From positions 1 through 33,914 of the forward strand of contig CAMDBU010000056.1 in assembly GCA_945889495.1 (NCBI GenBank): a DNA stretch of 33,914 nucleotides, given 5' to 3'. Positions 1 to 30,918 of the stretch are shown here, piece after piece. Within the stretch, counting starts at the first letter, position 1; each line of letters begins with the position of its first letter. Made by a program: the position numbers and the translations under genes. The stretch comes from Syntrophobacter sp. SbD2. GTDB taxonomy: Bacteria > Desulfobacterota > Binatia > UBA9968. Below the pieces are notes generated by a model, which was not told where the DNA came from, did no database searches, and saw nothing but the letters and a program-made list of their open reading frames with translations.

Positions 1-1440
1 ATCTTCGGCGCCGACAAGCGCATCGTCGGCGTCGCCGTGGTCGACTATCATGTGCCGAAAAGTTTGACCAACCGAGCCAAGCAGATCTCCGAGTCCTACG
101 AGCAATACAAGTATCTGACCTTTCTCAAGGCGCCGGTTAAAAACAGCTATATCTTGACGCTGTTTTTGATCACCCTGGTGATAATATTTTCCGCCACCTG
201 GTGGGGCTTTTACCTGTCCAAGGGCATCACCGTGCCGATTCAAAAGCTCGCCGAGGGCACCCATGAAGTGGCCCATGGCAATTGGGATTATAAGATTGAA
301 ACCAGCGGCGACGACGAGATCGGCGTGTTGGTCGATTCATTCAACCAGATGACCGGCGATTTGAAACAGATCACCCTGGAGCTCGAACGGCGCGGCAAGG
401 TGGTGCAGACGTTGCTCGCCAACATCGCCGCCGGCGTGGTGTCGGTGGATCCGGCGGGCAACATCACGACGTGGAACAAAGCCGCTGAGCAAATGTTGGG
501 CGTCAAATCCGAGCAGGCGTTGGCGAAAAACTATCATGAGGTGTTGGCGCCAGAGCCCTTGCGGTTGGTCGGCGAGATCATCGATAGCGTCAAGGACCGG
601 GAAAAAATCGAGCGCGAAATCAAAATCCCTCAGCGCGAGCAGCAGCTGACCGCGGTGGTGACGGCGGCGACGCTGCGCGACGACGACGGTTCGGCATTGG
701 GCGTCATGGTGTTTATCGAGGACATTACGCAGATTCAAAAGGTTCAGCGCATGGAAGCCTGGCGCGAAGTGGCCCGGCGCATCGCTCATGAGATCAAAAA
801 TCCGCTGACGCCGATCCAATTGTCCGCCGAGCGGCTGCGCAAGCGCTACGCCAACCTGCTCGGCGGCGACGGCGGCATCTTGGATAAATGCACGACCACG
901 ATCATTCAGCAGGTCGAAGAGTTGAAAAGCTTGGTCAACGAGTTCTCCCAGTTCGCCCGGCTGCCGGCGGCCAAGCTGTCGACCCAGGATTTGAACGAGA
1001 TCGTCAATGAAGCGCTGTTTCTTTTTAATGAAGGGCATAACGGAATACAATTCGATTTCCGCGCCGGGGTGATTCCGACTCTCGACTTGGACCGCGACCA
1101 GATCAAGCGGGTGCTGATCAATCTGCTCGACAACGCGGTGGCGGCGGTGCAAGATGATGGCGAGATCAAGCTAGCGACGCTTTACGACCGAGGGCGCGGC
1201 GTGGTGACCCTGGAAGTGGCCGATAACGGCAGCGGTCTGGCGCCGGAGATGCGCGCGAAAATCTTCGAGCCCTATTTCTCGACCAAGGAAAACGGCACCG
1301 GCTTGGGACTGACCATCGTCAGCCAGATCGTCGAAGATCATCGCGGTTACATCCGCGCCCTAGCCAATGAGCCCAGGGGGACGCGCTTTAGCATTGAATT
1401 TTCCGCGACTGAGGTTGCCAAACGGGCGGCCCATTCGTAA
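1..1440 (+). CDS. NtrY-like sensor histidine kinase, 5' truncated by window edge
   Basis: Membrane sensor kinase that autophosphorylates on histidine and passes the phosphate to a receiver protein. The reading frame is open from base 1, so the true start lies upstream and the first ATG at 37 is internal. Counting from base 37, there is a membrane segment at about residues 39-60, a HAMP linker at about 61-115, a PAS domain at about 120-235, and the phospho-acceptor region RRIAHEIKNPLTP with H251. The ATPase domain follows, with the N box NLLDNA, then DNGSGL and GTGLGL. This order (periplasmic part, TM, HAMP, PAS, HisKA, HATPase) is that of NtrY. The next gene starts 12 bases after the stop and carries an NtrX-type receiver, so the two are probably cognate. 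The sensory domain is outside the window, so the signal cannot be judged. Confidence 0.93.
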   Translation: MFGADKRIVGVAVVDYHVPKSLTNRAKQISESYEQYKYLTFLKAPVKNSYILTLFLITLVIIFSATWWGFYLSKGITVPIQKLAEGTHEVAHGNWDYKIETSGDDEIGVLVDSFNQMTGDLKQITLELERRGKVVQTLLANIAAGVVSVDPAGNITTWNKAAEQMLGVKSEQALAKNYHEVLAPEPLRLVGEIIDSVKDREKIEREIKIPQREQQLTAVVTAATLRDDDGSALGVMVFIEDITQIQKVQRMEAWREVARRIAHEIKNPLTPIQLSAERLRKRYANLLGGDGGILDKCTTTIIQQVEELKSLVNEFSQFARLPAAKLSTQDLNEIVNEALFLFNEGHNGIQFDFRAGVIPTLDLDRDQIKRVLINLLDNAVAAVQDDGEIKLATLYDRGRGVVTLEVADNGSGLAPEMRAKIFEPYFSTKENGTGLGLTIVSQIVEDHRGYIRALANEPRGTRFSIEFSATEVAKRAAHS

Positions 1441-1452
1441 GTTGGAGGCAGA

Positions 1453-2748
1453 GTGGAAGAGCTGGCGGCGAACAAAACTATTCTAGTGGTGGATGACGAA
1501 GACGATGTCCGGGAATCGGTGCGCGAAGTCTTGCGCGACGAAGGCTACCGGGTGATCGACACCGGCGACGGCACCCAGGTGTTGGAAATGATCCGCCAGG
1601 AGCGGCCCGAGCTGGTGCTACTCGACATCTGGATGCCGCAAGTGGACGGCATCGGACTGCTCAAGGAAATTAAATCCCAGGAGCCCGATCTCAACGTCGT
1701 CATGGTCTCCGGCCATGGCAACATCCACACCGCGGTGACCGCGACCAAATTCGGCGCCTTCGATTTTCTCGAAAAGCCGGTGTCTTTGGATGGCTTGTTA
1801 TTGACCGTGCAGCGCGCTCTCGGCGAGTCGTCGAACGCGGCGGCGCAGCAGGGCGGCGCCAAGAAAAAACGCGCCGTGGCTAAATCCAGCGACGCCGCGG
1901 CAGGGGTCGGCGCACCCAGCAGCATCAAGCAAAAGACTCTGAAAAAAAGCGTCGTGCTGTCAGGGCAGGGGCTCCATTCCGGCGTCAAGACCGGTTTGAT
2001 CTTACACCCGCTGCCGCCCGACAGTGGCATCCGCTTCACCGGTCTCTCCGGCGAGGTGACGGTGCCGGCGCATTTGGATTACGTCGGCTCCACCGGCTAC
2101 GCGACCTCGCTCCGCACCCAAGGCTTCGCCGTCGGCACGGTGGAGCATTTGCTCGCCGTGCTGCATAGCTACGGCATTACTAATTTATTGATCAAAGTGC
2201 AGGGCGAGGTGCCGATCCTCGACGGTTCGGCGTTGGAATTCTGCCAGGCCATCGAAGAAGCGGGCATCGAGCAGGAAGACCAAGAAATTAGCGAGATCGT
2301 CATCGACCGTAGCTACCGGGTCGACGCCAAGGGTGGCGAATCGATTTCGATTGAACCGGCGGATGCATTTTCGGTGCACTACGAGTTGCGCTATCCGGCG
2401 CCGGTGGGGGAGCAGGATTATCTCTACCGTCATAGCGGTGCCGATTCGTTTCGCGACGAGATCGCGCCGGCGCGCACCTTCGGCTTCCTCAAAGACATCG
2501 CCAAACTCCAGACCATGGGGCTCGCCAACGGCGGGCGGCTCAGCAACTTCATCCTGATCGACGACGAGAAAATTGTGAACACCGAGCTGCGCTTTGCCGA
2601 CGAATTCGCGCGCCACAAGATTCTCGATATCCTCGGCGATTTTTATCTCCTCGGCCGGCCGCTGCGCGGCGCGATCCACGCACGCATGACCGGCCACTCG
2701 GACAACATCGCGCTCTTGCGCAAGATTCGTGAAGGCTTGAAGCTCTAG
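1453..2748 (+). CDS. lpxC: NtrX-type receiver domain fused to LpxC (UDP-3-O-acyl-GlcNAc deacetylase)
   Basis: One uninterrupted 431-aa frame with a GTG start behind a GGAGG. Residues 8-122 are a response-regulator receiver: acidic pair D14/D15, phospho-acceptor D58, S86 and K108, with the VSGHGN and GAFDFLEKP signatures usual in NtrX. A Lys/Ala/Ser-rich linker follows (about 125-158). Residues 160-431 are a full LpxC, the zinc deacetylase that commits UDP-acyl-GlcNAc to lipid A synthesis: GQGLHSG at 171-177, E231-H232, H388-K389 with D392, and H415. By family knowledge H232, H388 and D392 bind zinc, and E231 and H415 act in catalysis. The AAA+ and DNA-binding domains expected in NtrX are absent. 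All key residues of both halves are present, so this is unlikely to be a broken gene. Control of LpxC by phosphorylation is an inference from the fusion and from the neighbouring kinase. Confidence 0.93.
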   Translation: MEELAANKTILVVDDEDDVRESVREVLRDEGYRVIDTGDGTQVLEMIRQERPELVLLDIWMPQVDGIGLLKEIKSQEPDLNVVMVSGHGNIHTAVTATKFGAFDFLEKPVSLDGLLLTVQRALGESSNAAAQQGGAKKKRAVAKSSDAAAGVGAPSSIKQKTLKKSVVLSGQGLHSGVKTGLILHPLPPDSGIRFTGLSGEVTVPAHLDYVGSTGYATSLRTQGFAVGTVEHLLAVLHSYGITNLLIKVQGEVPILDGSALEFCQAIEEAGIEQEDQEISEIVIDRSYRVDAKGGESISIEPADAFSVHYELRYPAPVGEQDYLYRHSGADSFRDEIAPARTFGFLKDIAKLQTMGLANGGRLSNFILIDDEKIVNTELRFADEFARHKILDILGDFYLLGRPLRGAIHARMTGHSDNIALLRKIREGLKL

Positions 2749-4741: not shown

Positions 4742-4770
4742 CTGCTCGCGACCCACGGAGGATGAGGATC

Positions 4771-6264
4771 ATGGAAAATCAACCCCAGCACGACGAAATT
4801 CATGTCATCTCAGACATTCATATGGGCGGTAGTCCGGGTTTCCAAATCTTGAAGGAAACCACCCGTCTGGCCGGTTTTATTGGCTGGGTAGCGGTCCAAC
4901 GTCCGGATCAAAGTGTCGCACTCGTCTTGAACGGCGACATCATCGATACCCTCGCTGAGGACGCGCTCCAAGGTTACATCGCTATCACGAATGCGGCGGA
5001 GATTGTCAGTCGCATTATGACCGACCCGTCGTTCGCCGTCATCTGGCAAGCACTCGCAGATTTTGTTAAGCGGCCGCATCGTAAACTGGTCTTGATCGTC
5101 GGCAATCACGATTTAGAACTCGCATTCCCGTCGGTGCAACGAACCATTACGGAACGTCTGGCAGGCGACGATCTGGAGGCGCGGGCACGCATCGAGTTCT
5201 CGACCATCGGCGCCGGGTATACCTGTAACGTCGGCAATGCGACGGTCTATTGTACCCATGGCAACGAAGTCGACGAGTGGAATTTTACTCGGTACGAAGA
5301 TATTTCCAAAGCTGCGCGACGTTTGGGTGCAGGACTTGGGCTGGAACCGGACGAGTGGCGCCCCAACGCAGGCACGAAAATGGTGCGCGATGTGATGAAT
5401 GAAGTGAAACGGAAGTATCGTTGGGTCGACCTGCTCAAACCCGAAATGGAAGCGGCGGTCAGCGTGCTCAGCGTGCTCGATGCCTCGGTGCTGGCGAAAC
5501 TCGGCAGTGTGGCCGCCTTGTTGACGGAGGCGAAGATCGAAAAGGCCGAGGCGGACGCACGGTTATCTGGCACGCTGATCAACGTCGCGCGCGAGTCGGT
5601 CGCGAATGTGAGAGTCGATTCTCTGCTGGGGCGCAATCTCCTGCAGGCGATCGATCCAAGTGCGGACACCAGTGGGGCGAGCGCGGACGACATGCTACTC
5701 GACGCAGAACGGTCATTGAGCGAACCGCGTAGGCAAAGGCCGGCATCCGCACAGGGGACGCTTGGGCGATGGCAATATTATATCGATCGCATACGCGGCG
5801 TCGAACCCGAGGAAGCCTTGCGTCGAGCGGTTATCGATTGGATCAGAGATGACCAAAGCTTTGTCGTCGATCATCCGGACGATACATTCAAACAAATCAA
5901 TGACGTGGTTTCACCGGCCATCGATGTGGTGATTACCGGGCACACCCATCTCGCTCGCTCGATAAGCCGCGGCGGCGGCAAACACTACTTTAATACTGGA
6001 ACGTGGATTCGGTTAATGAAGTTCACTGCGGCGATGTTAGATAGTAAGAACTCGTTTGAACCAATCTATCGTGTCCTGGTGAAAGGGGATATCGAAGGGA
6101 TTGATTCCCCTCCACCAGGAGTTGGACCGATCCTGTTCGATCGCACTAGCGCGGTGACGATCAGTGCTGACCAACAGGGAGTTACCGGACACCTGCTCGA
6201 CGTCACCGGTAATGGCACGACCCAGGTACAGGCGATGGGTGCGGCCGAGTTTCTCAAGCCGTAA
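4771..6264 (+). CDS. calcineurin-like metallophosphoesterase, partner of the CHAT gene
   Basis: A 497-aa soluble protein with all metal-binding motifs of calcineurin-like phosphoesterases: D15-x-H17 (SDIHMGG), G55-D56, G111-N112-H113-D114, H163 (THGNE) and G390-H391-T392-H393. It should therefore be an active two-metal hydrolase of phosphoesters, but the substrate cannot be told. Between H163 and GHTH lies an unusually long insert of about 200 residues, largely helical, including an Ala/Leu-rich part (about 225-270) and an Arg/Glu-rich part (about 310-350). Start: ATG 4771 has GGAGG at 4757-4761 with 9 bases between; an upstream in-frame ATG at 4762 lies too close to that site. The CHAT gene follows after 18 bases, so the two are co-transcribed. 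The pair has no obvious link to its housekeeping neighbours. The coding bases look less GGC/GCC-rich than in adjacent genes, which suggests transfer. Confidence 0.85.
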   Translation: MENQPQHDEIHVISDIHMGGSPGFQILKETTRLAGFIGWVAVQRPDQSVALVLNGDIIDTLAEDALQGYIAITNAAEIVSRIMTDPSFAVIWQALADFVKRPHRKLVLIVGNHDLELAFPSVQRTITERLAGDDLEARARIEFSTIGAGYTCNVGNATVYCTHGNEVDEWNFTRYEDISKAARRLGAGLGLEPDEWRPNAGTKMVRDVMNEVKRKYRWVDLLKPEMEAAVSVLSVLDASVLAKLGSVAALLTEAKIEKAEADARLSGTLINVARESVANVRVDSLLGRNLLQAIDPSADTSGASADDMLLDAERSLSEPRRQRPASAQGTLGRWQYYIDRIRGVEPEEALRRAVIDWIRDDQSFVVDHPDDTFKQINDVVSPAIDVVITGHTHLARSISRGGGKHYFNTGTWIRLMKFTAAMLDSKNSFEPIYRVLVKGDIEGIDSPPPGVGPILFDRTSAVTISADQQGVTGHLLDVTGNGTTQVQAMGAAEFLKP

Positions 6265-6282
6265 GTCAGGAGCTATCGATCC

Positions 6283-8250
6283 ATGTCAGAACCGATCCGT
6301 CCTATCCGCGATCTCCGCCTCGAACTCCTTCGTCCTGGGCCAGCGCATAATCAGTTATTATCGCCGCTGACACCGTATATTGCGCTTTGTGGCGCCGACG
6401 GTCCGGTAACTATCAACATCCCCTACGAGCACCGCCAGCTACTCACGCGCCTCAATCGTCTGCGTTACGAGGTCGACGGCATAGAGATCGCCCGCGAGCA
6501 GCGGGAGGCCGAGATTCGCGAGCTTGGCGAGACCCTGGGCAAAGTGCTCGGCTCAATCCCGTCGTTTTTCACCGAGCTTGGCAACGCCCTTTGCGAGCGT
6601 GATCGTCTTGTCCATCTCAGACTGTGCCTTTCCGGAGCGGAACTTGGCCTGCTTCCCTTCGAGGCAGCAATTGCGCCCGATGGTCTACCAGGTTCGGGTT
6701 CGCCACTGTTTCTTTCGCCCGGTACGCCGATCATCCTCACGCGCGAAGTACGCCGAACGCGGCCACTTACGGTAAATTGGGATCGGCCGCCGCGCATCCT
6801 GTTCGCGTTTGCCTCTCCCGAGGGTTACGCACCTGTTCCCGCACAGGACCATCTCGAAGCACTTCGGGGCGCAATCGAGCCCTGGATCGCAATCGAAAAC
6901 GATGGCAAGAAGCGTTTGCCGGAGGTTAAAAAATTCTTGACCGTTCTGCCGAATGCTACGCTCAAGGACATTGGTCGAGCGTGCGTTCAACAGGAGTACA
7001 CGCACGTGCATATCCTGGCCCATGGTGACGTCTTCGAAAAGGCCGGCGAACGTCGCTTCGGACTGGCGCTTGGGAGTGATCAGGGCCGGGCGCACGAAAT
7101 CGTCGACGGCGAACAACTCGCCATCGCAATCATGGGGCGGGACTCGAGCGGCCGGGCACTGCGCTGCCCCGCGCTGGTATCGCTATCGAATTGTGACTCT
7201 GGCAATAGCGGATCTGTGCTCGCGCCCGGCAGTAGTATTGCGCACGACCTTCACGTCCATGGAATTCCCTGGGTCATCGCCTCGCAGTTTCCGCTTTGGA
7301 TGCGGGCATCAACGGTTGCGACCAAATGTCTGTTCGACGCGCTCATCCGTGGCGACGACCCTCGTTGGGCATTGTGCGAGTTGCGCCTTCGCTTACGCGC
7401 TGATTTCCCGGCAACCCATGACTGGGCCAGTATCGTCGCGTACGTCACCGTGCCAGGGGATTTCGACGCCCAAGTCTTCACGTTTCGCAGCCGGCAAATC
7501 AAGGCGCGGACCGAAGTTCTGTTCAAACGCATCGATGCTTTGCTCGGTCAGAACACAGCGGGTGCTGTTGCTGCCGATCAGCAGGCTCGTCAACCGGATG
7601 TGACTCACGAGATTCTCACTCATTGCGATGCGATCCGAACCCAACTTGTCCGGTGGCGCAACGAGACACTGGTTCACCTGCCGGAAATTGAGGCTAAGCG
7701 GGAAAAGTCGGAGCGTCTTGGTGTCAGCGGAGCGAGCGAAAAACGGATCGGCGTTGCGCTGTACAGAGCGACCGGACAGGATGCCGGAGTTGTCACTGCG
7801 TACAACCAATCGATGGATTTCTACCGTAAAGCGGTCGAGGCGGACCCGAACAACCATTGGGCTATGACTCAATTCCTATCGATCCGCGCAATCGCTCCAG
7901 GCGGAGGTAAGGAAGCCTATCGCCGTTGGTGGCTAGCCGCGCGCGCATTGGCCGACATGCAGAGGGAGACAACCCAAGGCCGAGACCGCGCCTGGGCGCT
8001 TGGTACGCTGGCGGAGCTCGAGCTGCTTGGCACGACCTACGATGGGCGTGCTTTTAGAAAGGCCAAGGTGCGGAGCGAAATCCAATCTCTTTGCCGAGAA
8101 CTTGTCGATTGCGTTGAGGCGGGTGATTTTGCCATTGGCTCCACGGAACGACAGTTTCGGCGCTACGTCGACTACTGGTCAACCGGCCACCCAGACTGGA
8201 AAGATCTCGCTCAAGCGGCTTTGGATGCGCTCAAAGCCCCAGTGGCTTAG
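6283..8250 (+). CDS. CHAT-domain (caspase-like) protease with helical/TPR-like C-terminal region
   Basis: A 655-aa protein. Residues about 110-400 match the CHAT fold of clan CD cysteine peptidases. LSGAELGLLPFEAAI (117-131) corresponds to the family's LPWE strand, the catalytic histidine is H247 in HILAHGD, and the catalytic cysteine is C304 in LSNCDSGNSG. The stretch GIPWVIASQFPLW (327-339) is also typical. Both catalytic residues are present, so activity is expected. An N-terminal segment (1-105) includes a charged helix at about 65-85. The C-terminal 250 residues are helical, with one TPR-like unit near 505-535. There is no signal peptide or membrane segment. An AGGAG at 6268-6272 serves ATG 6283. 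CHAT proteases are known from bacterial immune systems, where they are unleashed on protein targets; a role for this pair in defence or regulated cleavage is inference. Confidence 0.87.
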   Translation: MSEPIRPIRDLRLELLRPGPAHNQLLSPLTPYIALCGADGPVTINIPYEHRQLLTRLNRLRYEVDGIEIAREQREAEIRELGETLGKVLGSIPSFFTELGNALCERDRLVHLRLCLSGAELGLLPFEAAIAPDGLPGSGSPLFLSPGTPIILTREVRRTRPLTVNWDRPPRILFAFASPEGYAPVPAQDHLEALRGAIEPWIAIENDGKKRLPEVKKFLTVLPNATLKDIGRACVQQEYTHVHILAHGDVFEKAGERRFGLALGSDQGRAHEIVDGEQLAIAIMGRDSSGRALRCPALVSLSNCDSGNSGSVLAPGSSIAHDLHVHGIPWVIASQFPLWMRASTVATKCLFDALIRGDDPRWALCELRLRLRADFPATHDWASIVAYVTVPGDFDAQVFTFRSRQIKARTEVLFKRIDALLGQNTAGAVAADQQARQPDVTHEILTHCDAIRTQLVRWRNETLVHLPEIEAKREKSERLGVSGASEKRIGVALYRATGQDAGVVTAYNQSMDFYRKAVEADPNNHWAMTQFLSIRAIAPGGGKEAYRRWWLAARALADMQRETTQGRDRAWALGTLAELELLGTTYDGRAFRKAKVRSEIQSLCRELVDCVEAGDFAIGSTERQFRRYVDYWSTGHPDWKDLAQAALDALKAPVA

Positions 8251-29349: not shown

Positions 29350-30918
29350 ATGCTGACTTCTGAAATTCGCAGCCAAATCGACCAAATCTGGAATGCCTTC
29401 TGGTCCGGCGGGATTTCCAATCCGCTGGAGGTGATCGAGCAGATCACCTACTTGCTGTTCATCAAACGGCTCGACGAGCTGCAGACGCTCGAAGAGTTGA
29501 AAGCCACAAGGCTAAAGACGCCCATCGAACGGCGCTTTTTCCCCGAGGGCGATGACGACCATCCGCGCTCGCCGCGACCCTACGCGGACTATCGCTGGTC
29601 GCGGTTCAAGCATTTCGCGCCGGCCGACATGTACACGGTGGTGGGCGAGCATGTTTTCCCGTTCCTTCGAACTTTGGGCGGCGATGAGTCGACCTACGCG
29701 CATCACATGAAGGACGCGCGCTTCACGATTCCCAATGCCGGTTTGCTGGCGAAGGTCGTCGACATGATCGACCAGGTGCCGATGGAGGAGCGCGACACCA
29801 AGGGTGACTTGTACGAGTACATGCTCGCCAAGATCGCTACCGCCGGTCAAAACGGCCAGTTCCGCACGCCGCGCCATATTATTCGCCTGATGGTCGCGAT
29901 GGTCGCGCCGACGCCGGGTGATATTCTCTGCGATCCGGCCTGCGGCACCGCCGGCTTTCTGGTCGCCGCGGGCGAATATCTGCGCGAGCGCCACCCGGAG
30001 ATTTTTCGCGACGCCAAGCTGTCGCGTCATTTTCATCACGAGTTTTTCCACGGTTTTGACTTCGATAACACCATGCTGCGCATCGGCAGCATGAACATGC
30101 TGCTGCACGGCGTGGAAAATCCAGACATCCGCTACCGCGACTCGCTGGCGCAGGATCACGCGGGCGAGGAGGAAAAATACACGCTGGTCCTCGCCAATCC
30201 GCCCTTTGCCGGGTCGCTTGACTACGAGAACACCGCCAAGGATCTCCAGCAGATCGTCAAGACCAAGAAGACCGAATTGCTTTTCCTCGCACTCTTCCTG
30301 CGTCTGCTCAAGCCCGGCGGACGCGCCGCCGTCATCGTGCCCGACGGCGTGCTCTTCGGTTCGTCCAACGCGCACAAGACGCTGCGCAAGATACTCGTCG
30401 AGGAACAGAAACTCGACGCCGTCATTTCGCTGCCGGGCGGCGTGTTCAAACCCTACGCCGGCGTCTCCACCGCGATTCTTCTCTTCACCAAGACCAACTC
30501 CGGCGGCACGGACCAAGTCTGGTTCTACGACGTGGACGCCGACGGCATGTCGCTGGACGACAAACGCACGGAACTCTTGCCGTCGGAAAAACTCGGCCCG
30601 ATTCCCAAAGTCGCACTCAGCGCCGATGAACACCTTAAAAACAATCTCCCAGACATTCTTCAGCGTTGGGCGACAATCCAAAATCGAAAATCCAAAATCC
30701 AAAATGAAGAGATGGGCCGCCCGCGCACCGCGCAAAGCTTCTGCGTCCCCAAGGCCGACATCGCCGCGCAGGGCTACGATCTCTCGCTCAATCGCTACAA
30801 GGAAGTGGTCCACGAAGAAGTCGCGCACCGCCCGCCGGGCGAAATTCTGAAAGCCCTCGGCCAACTGGAGGCGGAGATTCAGCAGGGCATGAAGGAACTG
30901 GAGGGGATGCTGAAGTGA
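29350..30918 (+). CDS. hsdM: type I restriction-modification system, DNA methyltransferase subunit
   Basis: N6-adenine methyltransferase of a type I R-M system, acting with HsdS. The 522-aa protein has the helical N-terminal HsdM domain (1-135), the SAM-binding motif DPACGTAGF (195-203) and the catalytic NPPF (283-286), followed by the conserved LPGGVFKPYAGVSTAILLFTK region. Near 443-452 the peptide IQNRKSKIQN is encoded by a repeated AATCCAAAATC-type word and looks like an in-frame insertion into a variable loop. The stop codon overlaps the GTG of hsdS (GTGA), so the subunits are translationally coupled. The tRNA-Leu lies 78 bases before it. Confidence 0.96.
   Translation: MLTSEIRSQIDQIWNAFWSGGISNPLEVIEQITYLLFIKRLDELQTLEELKATRLKTPIERRFFPEGDDDHPRSPRPYADYRWSRFKHFAPADMYTVVGEHVFPFLRTLGGDESTYAHHMKDARFTIPNAGLLAKVVDMIDQVPMEERDTKGDLYEYMLAKIATAGQNGQFRTPRHIIRLMVAMVAPTPGDILCDPACGTAGFLVAAGEYLRERHPEIFRDAKLSRHFHHEFFHGFDFDNTMLRIGSMNMLLHGVENPDIRYRDSLAQDHAGEEEKYTLVLANPPFAGSLDYENTAKDLQQIVKTKKTELLFLALFLRLLKPGGRAAVIVPDGVLFGSSNAHKTLRKILVEEQKLDAVISLPGGVFKPYAGVSTAILLFTKTNSGGTDQVWFYDVDADGMSLDDKRTELLPSEKLGPIPKVALSADEHLKNNLPDILQRWATIQNRKSKIQNEEMGRPRTAQSFCVPKADIAAQGYDLSLNRYKEVVHEEVAHRPPGEILKALGQLEAEIQQGMKELEGMLK
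30675..30705 (+). repeat. tandem AATCCAAAATC-type words inside hsdM
   Basis: Three or four imperfect copies of a roughly 10-base word (TCCAAAA / TCGAAAA) run through 30675-30705 in a GC-rich gene, keeping the frame open. Base composition differs sharply from the surrounding codons. Confidence 0.7.

Follow-up and report, generated by a model that had tools for sequence, protein, structure and literature searches.

One open reading frame in the window (the whole stretch of DNA analysed here, 33,914 nucleotides of a contig of Syntrophobacter sp. SbD2, class Binatia) joins an NtrX-type receiver domain to a complete LpxC deacetylase. LpxC catalyses the committed step of lipid A synthesis, is the chief point at which that pathway is regulated and serves as an antibiotic target; its control seems to have been moved into the enzyme itself, one phosphate away from a sensor kinase, across the whole class and beyond. 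The most likely reading of the comparative sequence evidence, with a probability of roughly 0.6, is that phosphorylation of the receiver would control the activity of the LpxC to which it is tethered.

The receiver-LpxC gene and its product

The fused gene is a single open frame with a GTG start at 1453 and its stop at 2748, encoding 431 amino acids; the upstream kinase gene has its end at 1440, leaving 12 bases to the GTG. The features of this part of the window are:

1..1440, + strand: NtrY-like sensor histidine kinase, N-terminal part missing at the contig start; HAMP, PAS, HisKA and HATPase_c (Pfam)
1444..1448, + strand: likely ribosome-binding site GGAGG, 4 bases before the GTG of the fused gene (from sequence)
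1453..2748, + strand: receiver-LpxC fusion gene, 431 aa (Pfam and TIGR00325)
1480..1809, + strand: NtrX-type receiver domain, residues 10-119 (PF00072); the closest solved receivers, highest-scoring by sequence, are 4d6x and 5m7n
1624..1626, + strand: codon of D58, the predicted phosphorylation site (D in 136/136 filled rows of the class alignment)
1828..1917, + strand: linker, residues 126-155, predicted disordered and fast evolving (pLDDT and dN/dS)
1930..2727, + strand: LpxC deacetylase domain, residues 160-425, zinc and catalytic residues intact (PF03331, TIGR00325, fold match)

In the fused protein, Pfam places Response_reg (PF00072, 108 bits) at residues 10-119 and LpxC (PF03331, 277 bits against a cut-off of 27) at residues 160-425, and the LpxC equivalog model TIGR00325 scores 242 bits against a cut-off of 187. 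The receiver signature is complete (acid pair D14/D15, phospho-acceptor D58, S86, K108), and alignment to P. aeruginosa LpxC (5u39) places E231-H232, H388, D392, D396 and H415, which we take to be the zinc and catalytic residues of the enzyme. Domain models and residue positions thus agree with what the sequence-only reading had reported, an NtrX-type receiver with all its phospho-transfer residues in frame with a complete LpxC. That reading also held that NtrX's AAA+ and DNA-binding regions are gone, and neither is found in the 431-residue protein by Pfam or by the NtrX model NF051870, which covers residues 9-132 only and scores 142 bits against a cut-off of 600. Judged by its sequence, the fused protein is not an NtrX; the receiver alone is of the NtrX type. 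Nor is it a CheB: Pfam yields Response_reg and LpxC only, with no methylesterase domain, and it reaches a score of 70 with the CheB model NF001965, whose cut-off is 293.

An AlphaFold model built from 21 sequences (mean pLDDT 82) renders most of both halves well, with low confidence at the linker (residues 127-151, pLDDT <50) and at residues 344-377 of LpxC. In fold comparisons, P. aeruginosa LpxC aligns with the LpxC half at Z 34.5, and several receivers align with the receiver half at Z 21-22, including that of Brucella NtrX (4d6x; Z 21.9, 51% identity). Each of the best 50 structure matches covers LpxC or the receiver separately; no chain spanning both is among them. The linker, ~30-40 residues long in the window protein, is unconserved and predicted to be disordered, and docking of the receiver on LpxC is accordingly putative.

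The upstream kinase has the NtrY core HAMP-PAS-HisKA-HATPase, with the codon of its H-box histidine presumably at about 787-789 (by motif); the contig begins inside the gene, and an NtrY_N region would lie outside the sequence. Three full-length kinases that precede fused genes in relatives (L007, L014, L026) carry NtrY_N (PF19312) above its cut-off. The description of the adjoining kinase as NtrY-like is upheld by these domains of the window kinase and its relatives.

The genome to which the window belongs (5.64 Mb in 239 contigs, 95.6% complete) has the receiver-LpxC frame as its sole LpxC match; a second, separate LpxC was looked for and none matched. With one lpxB match and two lpxA matches above curated cut-offs and this single LpxC, lipid A synthesis is expected and the fusion is its LpxC; the receiver-LpxC protein is accordingly expected from its sequence to serve as the LpxC of this genome, with deacetylase activity predicted. 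The two LpxA matches, at G000:C33:22378-23139 and C14:36416-37171, both lie above the curated cut-off, yet there is one LpxC. An NtrX query returns 12 other matches in the genome at E 1e-20, seven of which span receiver and AAA+.

Elsewhere in the window, a metallophosphoesterase gene (PF00149) is followed by one for a CHAT-domain protein with a sub-cut-off TPR-S match (4762-8250); as a guess, these two genes may form a defence or death module linked to a protease. A type I restriction-modification methylase, HsdM, is encoded at 29350-30918.

The fusion across the class

LpxC matches occur in 140 of 148 Binatia genomes, at 141 places, and in 92 of the 95 genomes of good quality; the eight genomes in which no match was found include three of these 95. 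All 141 places were examined, and at 137 of them the receiver precedes LpxC in the same frame, the single-contig genomes G400, G401 and G497 included. At three of the remaining places (L157, L159, L232) a contig end interrupts the sequence. The last of the four, L096, is a separate LpxC of 320 aa on a 3.1-kb contig of G510, a genome that also has a fusion; it groups with the separate LpxC proteins in the tree described below and is treated here, without proof, as foreign or contaminating. In one class fusion (L170, in G486) an in-frame TGA lies within the LpxC part.

The active sites of both halves are preserved throughout these class fusions. D14, D15 and D58 are kept in 136/136 filled rows and K108 in 137/137, while position 86 holds Ser in 125 rows and Cys in 12; E231 and H232 are invariant (137/137), as are H388, D392, D396 and H415 (133/133 in filled columns). 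Between the receiver and LpxC domain matches lie 23-44 residues. A kinase frame on the same strand is found upstream of the fusion in 133 of 137 cases, and the other four have ≤144 bases of upstream DNA.

Fusions beyond the class

A genome scan brought up relatives in which receiver, Sigma54_activat, AAA_lid and then LpxC follow one another in one frame of 690-750 aa. An LpxC match is present in 20 of the 24 Nitrospinota genomes, always in a frame of 538-962 aa; 19 of these frames also contain receiver and AAA+ parts, and the remaining one is truncated at a contig end. Among 395 sampled genomes of the window's phylum, 16 have a full-length long fusion, which in one of the 16 is broken by a TAG. 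Domain checks of fetched loci identified receiver-LpxC frames without AAA+ in families f14, f16, f17, f30, f33, f57, f58, f76, f83 and f89, and a receiver-AAA+-LpxC frame without a helix-turn-helix (HTH) region in f60. Plain LpxC frames of ~300 aa occur in many other families of the phylum, and the samples of f16, f33, f54 and f89 hold both fused and plain forms. Relatives with separate genes at this place had been named as a finding that would refute the sequence-only reading: within the class there is no complete separate LpxC but the foreign-looking L096, and outside it separate genes do exist, in a similar cluster.

The 93 fusions from outside the class collapse to 73 distinct proteins, all of which keep D14, D15, D58 and K108 (73/73), with Thr or Ser at residue 86. 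A pseudo-receiver in fusions that have no adjoining kinase was considered and dismissed, the site being intact in all 73. The kinase neighbour that the sequence-only reading had proposed to look for stands firmly within the class (133/137) and is mostly missing beside the receiver-LpxC fusions outside it, 33 of 34 of which lack a kinase frame in the 250 bases before them; adjacency is therefore a feature of the class, not a general one, and outside the class a kinase partner is often not evident. For the 39 AAA-bearing fusions, a kinase lies upstream in 17, none in 11, and upstream DNA is lacking in 11.

Several single loci deserve mention in their own right. One genome has two receiver-LpxC genes far apart on a single contig (G393:C1; L355 and L356). 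In family f39, two genomes have, in addition to a normal LpxC, a frame of 441 aa with a weaker one (G208:C9:45276-46106, G252:C162:4531-5361). In the long fusions L023 (G529) and L280 (G104) one in-frame TAG splits the receiver from AAA-LpxC, be it through sequencing error, as a pseudogene or as a real separation. Three LpxC entries titled Bacteroidota (L034, L035, L053), in frames of 468-499 aa that the receiver query did not match, are presumably of the bifunctional LpxC/FabZ kind.

A decayed AAA+ middle

The AAA+ part that lies between receiver and enzyme in the long fusions is degenerate. Of its Walker-B 'DE' motif nothing is kept in full among the 39 AAA-bearing fusions and the Glu survives in one; the G[AS]F.GA loop is kept in none and Walker A in 37. 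The corresponding counts for 25 unfused NtrX-like proteins are 19 for 'DE', 25 for its Glu and nine for the loop. Degenerate AAA+ parts are thus also present among the unfused proteins (6/25 without 'DE', 16/25 without the loop), and loop loss being common there too, the decay of AAA+ may have set in ahead of the fusion. On these motifs the long fusions would hardly act as sigma-54 activators, and the parts maintained in them are, to judge from their sequences, the receiver and the enzyme. Those AAA-bearing fusions that have an HTH-like region may still bind DNA; this label denotes likeness to residues 386-452 of L022 together with an NtrX model that reaches its last position there, and in the nine proteins checked no HTH had a Pfam match.

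Selection and fusion-specific residues

Comparisons of the window gene with six relatives yield dN/dS values, rough ones with dS mostly near or above 1, of 0.03-0.11 for the receiver and, in the five of six comparisons that could be computed, of 0.10-0.19 for LpxC and 0.39-1.10 for the linker. The receiver value is lower than that of LpxC in 5/5 computable comparisons, and the linker is nearly free of constraint. Fusion-specific residues are few. At R121, in the last receiver helix, 154 receiver-LpxC rows (170 given) have Arg, and 17 of 24 NtrX proteins have Asn there; K248 of LpxC is Lys in 95/95 fused proteins and Glu in 47 of 53 separate ones. The two could be candidate contacts between the domains, or marks of the clade only.

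Origin of the fusion

In a quick tree of 148 LpxC domains, a single branch (SH-aLRT 99) splits the 95 fused from the 53 separate proteins, so that the fused/separate label changes once on the tree, against 43.6 times in shuffles. (Every sixth class locus and every second locus of L066-L095 were sampled; L034, L035, L053 and L311, which are too long, and rows with <250 LpxC residues, or <240 for separate proteins, were left out.) On the fused side, the receiver-LpxC proteins of the class lie near the midpoint root and the AAA-bearing forms are nested inside; the tree alone therefore does not show that a full NtrX fused first and that AAA+ was lost later. The C-terminal tails of the two kinds also differ: 14-33 residues follow the last His motif in fused LpxC (group medians 16-18, n=95), against 13-61 in separate LpxC (median 43, n=53).

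Gene order speaks for a shared cluster of lpxC, kinase and NtrX. The order lpxC, DUF4390, kinase, NtrX is found in 8/8 named loci that have a separate lpxC and an NtrX gene, and DUF4390, kinase, fusion in f10, f57 and f107 and in Nitrospinota L026, L361 and L367. In the class, 14 of 17 named loci read ruvB, kinase, REC-LpxC, and a ruvB match is present in 54 of 78 wider class loci with near-full flanks, which span just 3.5 kb upstream; a locus titled Syntrophus (L036) reads ruvB, lpxC, DUF4390, kinase, NtrX. Of 50 genomes in which both genes were located, 29 have lpxC on the strand of the NtrX-like frame and 2.2-3.3 kb upstream of it, and 21 do not, counts from an unfair sample of hand-read, top-scoring rows only, a further seven of which have no listed LpxC place and four no LpxC.

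A proposed mechanism and its alternatives

NtrY phosphorylates the receiver of NtrX at a conserved Asp, and receivers relay the resulting change through their alpha4-beta5-alpha5 face. By extension, the NtrY-like kinase encoded just upstream of the fusion would sense an envelope or metabolic signal and hand its phosphate to D58; phosphorylation would alter the alpha4-beta5-alpha5 face, and with it the docking of the receiver on the tethered LpxC, and deacetylase activity would be raised or lowered by a presumed allosteric effect. In CheB, a receiver joined to a methylesterase that functions in chemotaxis, phosphorylation relieves inhibition, and this analogy tips the balance a little towards relief of LpxC inhibition; in alphaproteobacteria, however, the action of NtrYX on lpxC transcription is negative (PMC12444477), and the sign of control could therefore be the reverse. 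As to origin, the ntrX gene of an lpxC-DUF4390-ntrY-ntrX cluster would have fused to lpxC, its AAA+ and DNA-binding parts then decaying and finally being lost, a presumed order of steps. We put at even odds the broader proposition that lipid A synthesis is controlled through receiver phosphorylation on LpxC in Binatia, in Nitrospinota and in numerous other families of the window's phylum, an NtrX-type transcription factor of the same envelope cluster having been turned, as it fused and its AAA+ and DNA-binding parts decayed, into an allosteric domain of an enzyme that it had formerly served.

The sequence-only reading had ventured that a two-component kinase may act directly on the enzyme. Comparison lends this support, through the invariant receiver site, the low receiver dN/dS, the kinase neighbour in the class and the decayed AAA+, and the alternatives are best weighed against the same facts. 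The phosphorylated receiver might set the amount of LpxC rather than its rate, taking the place of the C-terminal tail as a protease adaptor or a switchable degron within the protein itself. This is unlikely: in its favour, E. coli LpxC is under FtsH control (PMC12444477), exerted via its C-terminal end (by the title of a work cited in PMC3333781), and the tails of fused LpxC are mostly shorter (medians 16-18 against 43), but FtsH control of LpxC is largely confined to Enterobacteriaceae (PMC12444477), some separate LpxC proteins are short-tailed too (minimum 13), and tail loss fits activity control equally well. It is quite unlikely that the receiver serves chiefly for tethering or assembly, whereby it would bring LpxC to the membrane-bound NtrY-like kinase or make it dimerise, with phosphorylation tuning location and not catalysis. 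The kinases of relatives do have NtrY_N and HAMP, typical of membrane proteins, and Ght of N. meningitidis is proposed to place LpxC at the membrane as its partner (PMC12444477); yet a pure tether needs no full phosphorylation site, and the site is invariant, nor would tethering explain fusions without an adjoining kinase gene.

A receiver that has no effect on LpxC, be it left over from the fusion or acting as a phosphate sink, is very unlikely. Fused domains can be neutral passengers, and 33 of 34 non-class receiver-LpxC fusions are not beside a kinase; against this, dN/dS is lower for the receiver than for either of the other two parts, and 137 fusions of the class and 73 others all share an invariant receiver active site, while AAA+ decayed. 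An assembly or frame error joining two neighbouring genes, which the origin of the window as a contig of a fragmented 239-contig assembly might invite, is scarcely credible and was rejected, the frame being continuous at 137/141 class places, three single-contig genomes among them. Control of LpxC activity by phosphorylation of its receiver remains the reading that we prefer.

Comparison with known systems

Response regulators with enzyme outputs are a known kind, but we know of no description of LpxC as such an output. Like CheB, the window protein has an N-terminal receiver, a flexible linker and a C-terminal enzyme; it differs in that the enzyme of CheB is unrelated to LpxC and its role is in chemotaxis. 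Among the literature matches listed, none describes a receiver-LpxC or NtrX-LpxC protein by its title or the start of its abstract, although InterPro may hold automatic annotation of the architecture. In a 2025 review, according to which control of LpxC outside E. coli and Pseudomonas is still emerging, no passage matches 'receiver', 'response regulator' or 'fused' (PMC12444477).

Two bodies of work nevertheless come close. Studies of alphaproteobacteria have NtrYX acting negatively on the lpxC transcript (PMC7240162; PMC12444477), and R. sphaeroides without NtrYX has lpxC mRNA up 8.8-fold and increased LPS, with no NtrX site found at lpxC (PMC7240162). In D. vulgaris, the sole target of the response regulator DVU2934 is lpxC, a gene that in S. 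fumaroxidans lies directly upstream of an operon orthologous to that of DVU2934 (PMC3333781). The fusion links the alphaproteobacterial NtrYX-lpxC connection and the Desulfovibrio lpxC-specific regulator to a physical protein, and the intermediates, in which a degenerate AAA+ stands between an intact receiver and the enzyme, suggest that a transcription factor was recycled as an enzyme switch.

The window protein shares with separate LpxC (TIGR00325; E. coli, P. aeruginosa, Aquifex) its fold (Z 30-34) and its zinc and catalytic residues, and is set apart from it by an N-terminal receiver, a short C-terminal tail and clade-specific residues such as K248. With NtrX/NtrY it has in common the NtrX-like receiver, the gene cluster and, in its relatives, kinases with NtrY_N, HAMP, PAS, HisKA and HATPase, whereas the fusion has neither AAA+ nor HTH and its output is an enzyme. 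The NtrYX systems of R. sphaeroides and C. crescentus (PMC7240162, PMC12444477) belong to the same kinase and regulator family and have the same target, lpxC, but act by transcription, apparently indirectly in R. sphaeroides; here the regulator is part of the enzyme. DVU2934 of D. vulgaris likewise places LpxC under two-component control (PMC3333781), but does so as a DNA-binding regulator encoded by a separate gene.
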